Assembly: GCA_006226495.1 (NCBI GenBank)
Contig: SBGU01000008.1
Location: forward strand, 1 to 64,000
DNA from: Alphaproteobacteria bacterium
GTDB taxonomy: Bacteria > Pseudomonadota > Alphaproteobacteria > Sphingomonadales > Kordiimonadaceae
DNA: 64,000 nucleotides
Reading direction: 5' to 3'
The notes under the pieces are model-generated. The model did no database searches and was not told where the DNA came from. It worked only from the letters and a program-made list of their open reading frames with translations. Position 1 is the stretch's first letter; each line of letters opens with the position of its first letter. The translations under genes and the position numbers were made by a program. Shown in pieces: positions 43,413 through 44,178 of this stretch.

Positions 43413-43584
43413 GGGTAATCCCCTCAATCCAATGAGGGTATGTTAGCGCTTGCAGGTTAACAGAGTGCGATCAGAAAGCTAAAATTGCGCCGAACACGGC
43501 CAACATTACCCTACCGAAAGACCGTGACACGCGCAGGGCCGCACGATATAGAAACAGCGTTCAACGCCAGCTCAGGAAAATGCC

Positions 43585-44178
43585 ATGGCCGTCTTGCCGC
43601 TTGTATATGCACCCAACCCCATCTTCCGCAAAAAGGCCGAACCGGTCGAGGCAGTGGACGACAGCATCCGCGCCATCATCGACGACATGCTGGAAACCAT
43701 GTATGCCGAACGCGGTGTGGGCATTGGCGCCAACATGGTCGGCATCCTGAAGCAGATTATCGTGCTCGACCTGCAGCCTGAGGGCGTGCGGGACCCGCTG
43801 GTGTGCGTGAACCCGAAGATTGTCTGGTATTCGGAGGAAAAGAGCAGCATGGAAGAGGCCTCGCTGTGTTTCCCCGGCATCTCGGCGGAAGTCAGCCGCC
43901 CGCGCGCGATCCATGTCACCTATCTGGACCGCGACGGTGTCGCGCGTGAACTGGAAGCCGAAGGCGACCTGGCGACCGTGATCCAGCATGAAATGGATTA
44001 CCTGGAAGGCATGACCTACCTGGACTATCTGTCGAAAATGAAGCGCGACCTGCTCATGAAAAAAATGGCCAAATATATGAAATCCGGCCACCATCATGTG
44101 CATGGCCCGCACTGCAACCATGGCCACGACCATCACCATGATCATGGCCATGTACACGGCCCGGACTGCAATCATTAA
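43585..44178 (+). CDS. Degenerate peptide-deformylase-like protein with His-rich tail
   Basis: A 197-residue protein aligned along its first 168 residues with peptide deformylase (YAERGVGIGA, VNPKIV, LDRDG and QHEMDYLEG match by position). Key residues differ: the active-site Gln position is Met51, the metal Cys position is Ser93 (EASLC instead of EGCLS; Cys95 lies two later), and the second metal His is Tyr139. His135 and Glu136 remain. Residues 169-197 hold 14 His and 2 Cys and contain the repeat HVHGPxCNH twice. An active deformylase is unlikely. A metal-binding or chaperone-like role is possible. RBS CAGGAAAA. No canonical def is in the window. Confidence 0.85.
   Translation: MAVLPLVYAPNPIFRKKAEPVEAVDDSIRAIIDDMLETMYAERGVGIGANMVGILKQIIVLDLQPEGVRDPLVCVNPKIVWYSEEKSSMEEASLCFPGISAEVSRPRAIHVTYLDRDGVARELEAEGDLATVIQHEMDYLEGMTYLDYLSKMKRDLLMKKMAKYMKSGHHHVHGPHCNHGHDHHHDHGHVHGPDCNH

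Follow-up and report, generated by a model that had tools for sequence, protein, structure and literature searches.

The catalytic and metal residues of the peptide deformylase (PDF) family are Gln50, Cys90, His132, Glu133 and His136, numbered here through alignment to the E. coli PDF, which is also the basis for all residue equivalences given below. PDF is an oxygen-sensitive iron enzyme, and its metal supply in cells is not known to have been settled. In the excerpted text of PMC12690207, deformylase is described as essential and as a drug target, the three PDF motifs are set out, and accessory (type 3) PDFs are reported as inactive in Staphylococcus aureus and Streptococcus pneumoniae, while those of T. 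brucei are cited as active. The same excerpts list the ribosomal contacts of the E. coli enzyme, with L149, K150, R153 and K157 facing uL22 and K160 and R163 facing the 23S rRNA. According to a portion of PMC8712518, PDF and methionine aminopeptidase occupy overlapping sites on the ribosome. We infer that a non-catalytic protein docking there could affect both.

Two further groups of proteins provide a background for what follows. In the available part of PMC11198818, SlyD is presented as a prolyl isomerase and chaperone with a nickel-binding, His-rich C-terminal domain. Furthermore, a PyrC paralog, HemB2 and DksA paralogs that have lost metal ligands are described, in the sections of PMC2770081 at hand, as being located near predicted Zur sites; the word “deformylase” is absent from the main text of that article.

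The window, by which we mean the whole 64,000-nucleotide stretch of alphaproteobacterial DNA that was analysed, contains an open reading frame at 43585-44178 (+ strand) that encodes 197 amino acids plus a stop, with a translation that agrees with an earlier description made from the letters alone (hereafter the sequence-only reading). The features of the locus are collected in Table 1. The Pfam model PF01327 covers residues 4-154 of the protein (E 2.3e-47), and the best relative by sequence in the PDB is 1ix1 (E 3.3e-40), a P. aeruginosa PDF according to its title. An AlphaFold2 model built from a 23-sequence alignment placed 156 residues at a pLDDT of at least 90 and the tail, residues 170-197, below 50 and disordered. 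The best 50 PDB chains found with this model in Foldseek were all PDFs, with a TM by target of 0.79-0.97. The protein thus belongs to the PF01327 family both by sequence and by fold (TM by target up to 0.97), and the deformylase fold claimed in the sequence-only reading is borne out.

Table 1. Features of the pseudo-deformylase gene and its product, with positions counted from the first nucleotide of the window; clade refers to the 48 pseudo-deformylases and canonical to the 117 canonical PDFs of the alignment.
Feature	Position	Strand	Basis
Possible ribosome-binding site, a purine-rich AGGAAA upstream of the ATG	43574..43579	+	Sequence reading, position only
Pseudo-deformylase CDS	43585..44178	+	ORF, Pfam match, orthologs
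Met51 codon, replaces catalytic Gln50 (E. coli)	43735..43737	+	M 48/48 clade, Q 117/117 canonical
Ser93 codon, replaces metal ligand Cys90	43861..43863	+	S 48/48 clade, C 117/117 canonical
Cys95 codon, aligned with Ser92, variable in the clade	43867..43869	+	C 28/48, S 20/48
His135 and Glu136 codons, retained from HExxH	43987..43992	+	H and E 48/48
Tyr139 codon, replaces metal ligand His136	43999..44001	+	Y 48/48 clade, H 117/117 canonical
Basic C-terminal helix, residues 151-166, equivalent to the E. coli PDF docking helix	44035..44082	+	Alignment, model, net charge +6
Disordered tail, residues 169-197, 14 His and 2 Cys	44089..44175	+	Composition, AlphaFold2 model
Tail unit 1, HVHGPHCNH	44095..44121	+	Translation, DNA pattern
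Tail unit 2, HVHGPDCNH	44149..44175	+	Translation, DNA pattern

Among the NCBIfam models, the protein passes TIGR00079 (147.8 bits, cut-off 103.95) and NF001159 (140, cut-off 125), but not the top-scoring model NF009484 (155.2, cut-off 190), and automatic annotation would therefore probably label it “deformylase.” A second open reading frame of 204 amino acids spans the whole gene on the minus strand (43561-44175), with a Met/His/Val-rich stretch opposite the tail. It is probably an artefact of codon use, since it is the plus frame that matches Pfam and that is under the purifying selection described below.

The active site has been altered in a consistent manner. Of the three motifs of a functional PDF, motif I lacks the catalytic Gln, motif II reads EASLC instead of EGCxS, and motif III reads HEMDY instead of HExxH, with a Tyr at the second metal His. 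The E. coli-numbered alignment confirmed the three replacements and the retained His135 and Glu136 that the sequence-only reading had proposed, and it added a change from Gly89 to Ala92 that was absent from its list. We read 48 pseudo-PDFs in total, and M51, S93, Y139, Q134, H135, E136, E91 and R105 are identical in all of them; E91, Q134, H135 and E136 are pocket residues that have thus been retained. The mostly alphaproteobacterial canonical PDFs in the alignment invariably contain Gln, Cys and His, respectively, where the clade has Met, Ser and Tyr (117/117). Deformylase activity from a reshaped metal site, for example one using Cys95, had been named in the sequence-only reading as an outcome that would speak against a dead enzyme. 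We consider Cys95 unlikely as a rescue ligand, given that the position is divided between Cys (28) and Ser (20) in the 48 proteins.

The pseudo-PDFs also form a group of their own. In a tree of 41 pseudo-PDFs, 54 canonical PDFs and 4 other sequences, the 41 fell on one side of a single branch (support 100/99). With the motif columns removed, all 48 remained on one side of a branch (SH-aLRT 100) in a quick tree without bootstrap, for which the 118 canonical rows, E. coli included, had been thinned to 80. The Met/Ser/Tyr set, which the sequence-only reading had proposed to trace in a tree, is thus fixed in one clade. The mean column identity is 52% in an alignment of 36 pseudo-PDFs, and only seven columns (6, 14, 39, 51, 93, 132 and 139) are fixed at the 80% level in both the clade and the canonical proteins with a different residue in each. 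Three of these seven are catalytic or metal positions, which argues for a local and shared change rather than a general decay.

Estimates of dN/dS for the deformylase domain ranged from 0.048 to 0.107 in the five of seven pseudo-PDF pairs with a finite value, and were 0.132 and 0.027 in two canonical pairs; the ratio was saturated in the other two pseudo-PDF pairs and in one of the three canonical pairs, and several dS values are above 1, so that the pseudo-PDF ratios are uncertain there. In both trees, the pseudo-PDF branches are longer than those of the canonical copies, and the constraint is strong nonetheless. Judged from these comparisons of sequences, the gene is a conserved pseudo-deformylase under strong purifying selection and not a decaying gene.

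Absence of a second, canonical def had been put forward in the sequence-only reading as a reason to doubt that the protein is dead. This doubt does not apply, because the assembly (4.32 Mb, 60 contigs, 96.8% complete) matches PF01327 at two places, namely this gene and C19:90386-90841, and the latter is a canonical def of 172 amino acids with GLAAIQ, EGCLS and QHEIDH. The adjoining open reading frame at C19 was recognised by eye as fmt-like, and it putatively encodes a methionyl-tRNA formyltransferase. An accessory copy with altered motifs next to a canonical Def is the arrangement described for the inactive type 3 PDFs. PDF matches were obtained in all genomes of a 40-genome search that included the window's own and its relatives.

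A profile search combined with sequence reading identified the pseudo-PDF in 40 of 296 genomes of the order. These belong to the window's own family (f1, 24/29) and to families f2 (2/8) and f8 (14/32), with family sizes counted by hand; no pseudo-PDF was recognised by score in the other families of the order, including the largest, f5 (0/213). The score gap behind these counts is thin, with 203.8 bits for the lowest pseudo-PDF and 197.6 for the highest canonical copy read, and the matches below it were read in part. All 40 carriers have a second PDF match, and the 20 second copies that were read are all canonical. In a sample of 385 genomes from the class, seven carriers were found outside the order, and the 16 matches comprised eight pseudo-PDFs (the window's included) and eight canonical PDFs. 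Among 398 genomes of the phylum, the carriers found were limited to the window's genome and two others from f1. Both samples were searched at a strict limit of E 1e-58, at which weaker members would be missed. Sneathiella glossodoripedis carries a pseudo-PDF (1 of 80 among the matches listed in a GTDB contig scan), and a plasmid search yielded 996 matching records, all below 60% identity.

Five of the 29 f1 genomes (G001, G008, G019, G022 and G094) had no pseudo-PDF in the profile search of the order, and the gene thus seems dispensable in parts of this family; two of the five are about 76% complete and three at least 93%. A PDF homolog of another kind, L181 (G034:C9), is 33% identical, has ESCLS for EGCLS and an intact QHEMDH, and its genome also carries a canonical def (L111).

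The basic helix at the C-terminal end of the domain may bear on where the protein acts. The equivalents of K150, K157 and K160 are K or R in 47 of the 48 pseudo-PDFs each, and the equivalent of R163 is K or R in 39, while the L149 position varies (M 19, V 12 and L 9 of 48). The R153 equivalent is Leu156 in the window protein and R in 16 of the 48. Loss of this Arg does not separate the clade from the canonical enzymes, because all 30 canonical PDFs of the order that were compared have M or I at this position. As far as the aligned residues tell, the clade has retained the basic part of the putative docking interface to about the same degree as the order's canonical PDFs have.

The helix is followed by a tail for which the sequence-only reading gave a length of 29 residues, a content of 14 His and 2 Cys, and two HVHGPxCNH units, all of which were confirmed by composition and by a pattern search. 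A degenerate DNA pattern for the core VHGPxCxH hits only the two places in the tail in the whole 4.32-Mb assembly, and its reversed control has no match there. The binomial probability of 14 His in 29 residues is about 2e-14 at 3% His and 2e-11 at 5%, and residues 1-166 contain two His. No PDB chain matched the tail up to E 10. The tail also seems to be under selection, as suggested by a dN/dS of 0.101 between the window and its closest ortholog over 27 codons.

When a tail is defined as three or more His plus Cys after the helix, it is present in 25 of the 48 pseudo-PDFs, namely all 24 of f1 and one of f2 (L097), and in none of the 117 canonical PDFs. The co-occurrence of tail and substitutions that the sequence-only reading had raised therefore stands in so far as the tail is confined to the clade, and fails in that 23 of the 48 members are tail-less. 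The tail cannot thus be the core function, which proteins with the Met/Ser/Tyr set perform without it. Tail-less members include L132, L136-L138, L161-L163 and L166-L172 in f8, where motif II is often E[AG]S[VI]CFPG, and L202-L208 in other families.

His, the residue stressed in the sequence-only reading, gives way to Cys as the constant core when the f1 tails are compared. All 24 contain at least two Cys, whereas the number of His ranges from 0 to 19, with none in two tails, and 17 of the 24 have the spacing C-x-D-P/R-x-C. Five of the tails are long, with 29-41 residues and 11-19 His, and the HVHGPxCNH form in the window belongs to them.

A module of similar make-up was observed in the canonical PDFs of f5 (L198, L224-L251), where a Cys/His-rich insert occupies an internal loop after the strand that ends in IDLQ, as in DCGDEGCGHDHRP and ACDHDGHHHHHQP. 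In 28 f5 genomes from 26 genera, chosen for weak and split profile matches in the search of the order, the main PDF always contained the insert (28/28) and had preserved all three motifs. One of these genomes (G212) has a second PDF that lacks the insert, and none of 20 f5 PDFs with unsplit profile matches has His or Cys in that loop. Among 165 other PDFs in the insert alignment, 164 have at most two His/Cys in the loop, and the remaining one, L198, is the insert gene of genome G033 under another locus. The insert bears a striking resemblance to the pseudo-PDF tails (ACGDPHCGHDHH), and this likeness may be a case of convergence. Taken together, the insert and the tails suggest one possible reading, in which metal-binding modules have been acquired more than once by the PDFs of this order.

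The gene stands between genes on the opposite strand. From crude calls of open reading frames, no conserved operon partner was seen, and the surroundings differ between the families; the longest frame was called first, and the antisense frame was picked instead in the window and at three other loci. Seven of eight scanned neighbors in the window matched Pfam (DUF4399, cupin, fatty-acid hydroxylase, Asp/Asn hydroxylase, DUF2059, zinc-binding dehydrogenase and carbon-nitrogen hydrolase) and one had no match; no metal transporter, metallochaperone or nickel gene was found among the eight. From recall of their sequences, we presume that a nearby pair is rpsI/rplM. In 14 upstream regions, out of 48 genes, no shared block was discerned by eye and no shared Zur- or Fur-like site by a simple scan, which is a weak test. 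Single matches consisted of a Zur-like palindrome near the start codon of L103 and a Fur-like half site in L101. Elsewhere in the genome, at G000:C41:74044-77472, matches to the urease alpha subunit and to a CobW/UreG-type GTPase are located about 3 kb apart.

The fixed set of residues and the tail together suggest a conserved job, perhaps at the ribosome. Our preferred reading, which we hold tentatively and rate slightly short of an even chance, is that the protein is a PDF paralog which has lost catalysis, docks on the ribosome and carries a tail that responds to metal or to its thiol state. With the PDF metal site presumably gone, the protein would no longer deformylate. Its C-terminal helix would dock it near uL22 at the tunnel exit, where it would occupy or sense the binding site of Def and methionine aminopeptidase. 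The tail, in turn, would bind metal, most likely Zn2+ because it combines Cys with His, or sense its thiol state, and could thereby tune the docking or hand metal to a partner, plausibly Def itself.

Several other explanations for these patterns have been considered. One is that the gene is a duplicate on its way to becoming a pseudogene, as the loss of two of the three metal ligands and the long branches might indicate. We rejected this on the selection and distribution data and give it next to no probability, since the frames are open in 48/48, dN/dS is about 0.05-0.11, the substitutions are fixed and the gene is present in 24 of 29 f1 genomes. The protein could alternatively be a hydrolase still, in which Ser93, His135, Glu136 and Tyr139 make up a metal-free (Ser-His type) or differently metallated center that acts on N-termini or other acyl substrates. 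The invariance of these four residues makes a rebuilt active site possible, and together with Glu91 and Gln134 they amount to more conservation than the fold seems to need; moreover, the excerpts of PMC12690207 indicate that altered motifs do not always abolish PDF activity. Met51, however, removes a Gln that none of the 117 canonical PDFs has lost, and we regard an active hydrolase as rather unlikely.

The tail, for its part, might be a zinc-structured docking element that binds a partner rather than a supplier of metal, with precedents in the C-terminal zinc motif of SecA and the zinc finger of eukaryotic methionine aminopeptidase 1. The two or more Cys of all f1 tails, their recurrent spacing, the variable His and the position directly after the docking helix would all fit such a role, but the five longest tails contain more His than a docking motif should require and the tail in the window is predicted to be disordered, so that we consider it unlikely, if a serious contender. 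A nickel store or chaperone for urease or hydrogenase, similar to SlyD or UreE, is in our view very unlikely, and we rejected it as the main role. It could be argued from the urease alpha subunit match in the window's genome and from the resemblance of the His-rich tail to nickel-binding tails (SlyD, in the available part of PMC11198818). Nickel was also the first metal named in the sequence-only reading, and it is not favored by our data. In the 24 f1 genomes, a small sample and hence a weak test, clear urease matches (about 189-195 bits) accompany two of the five long tails and five of the 19 other tails (Fisher p 0.61), and the numbers become 4/5 and 11/19 (p 0.61) if eight genomes with weak partial matches just over the Pfam cut-off are added. 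In G011, the genome of the closest ortholog, a long tail is accompanied by no more than a below-cut-off urease match (E 5.7e-4), no NiFe hydrogenase match was obtained in the window's genome, and the scanned neighbors include no nickel gene.

Returning to the reading of a non-catalytic, ribosome-docking paralog, a more daring extension is that deformylation in this order has gained metal handling more than once, in cis through the f5 insert and in trans through the tail of a docked dead twin that buffers, senses or delivers metal, and that the Met/Ser/Tyr pocket of the twin serves as a metal-free reader of nascent N-termini. We offer it as speculation that is distinctly unlikely to hold as a whole. 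A fixed and selected pseudo-deformylase with a uniform active-site replacement would represent a case in nature where docking on the ribosome and recognition of N-termini are uncoupled from catalysis. Should the tail bind metal, the metal status of the cell would be tied to the first step of protein maturation, a link that is directly testable.

In comparison with the canonical type 1 PDF (Def, PF01327), the window protein is similar in its fold, length and basic C-terminal helix, with 42% identity between residues 1-166 and the canonical copy of the same genome, and differs by Met/Ser/Tyr for Gln/Cys/His, by the Cys/His tail and by its separate locus. Like the type 3 PDFs of S. aureus and S. 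pneumoniae, it is an additional copy that exists next to an active Def and has altered conserved motifs. Since inactive accessory PDFs are already known from the excerpted text of PMC12690207, which reports those two as inactive, a dead PDF as such has precedents. Type 3 PDFs have changes in motifs I and II, whereas the window's clade has one fixed set of changes in I, II and III; this comparison is by description as given in those excerpts. Among the papers listed in full-text searches of the open-licence literature, none deals, as judged from titles and the openings of abstracts, with the pseudo-PDF clade or with a Cys/His tail on a PDF.

The likeness to SlyD, as far as the available part of its description goes, is that of a protein-biogenesis factor with a variable, here putative, metal-binding C-terminal part that is absent in many orthologs; the folds are unrelated, and isomerase and chaperone functions are known for SlyD. 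The paralogs of PyrC, HemB and DksA, as portrayed in the sections of PMC2770081 at hand, similarly represent ligand-less copies retained beside a metal-dependent one. They are predicted to be zinc-regulated, whereas the Zur-like site expected of a Zur-regulated, metal-free paralog is not shared in the clade, as judged from the weak test of 14 upstream regions. The canonical PDFs of f5 provide the comparison within the order, in that a PDF-family protein carries a Cys/His module of similar make-up in both cases (for example CGDEGCGHDH against CGDPHCGHDHH). In f5 the module interrupts a loop inside an enzyme whose motifs are all preserved, and in the clade it forms the tail of a pseudo-deformylase.
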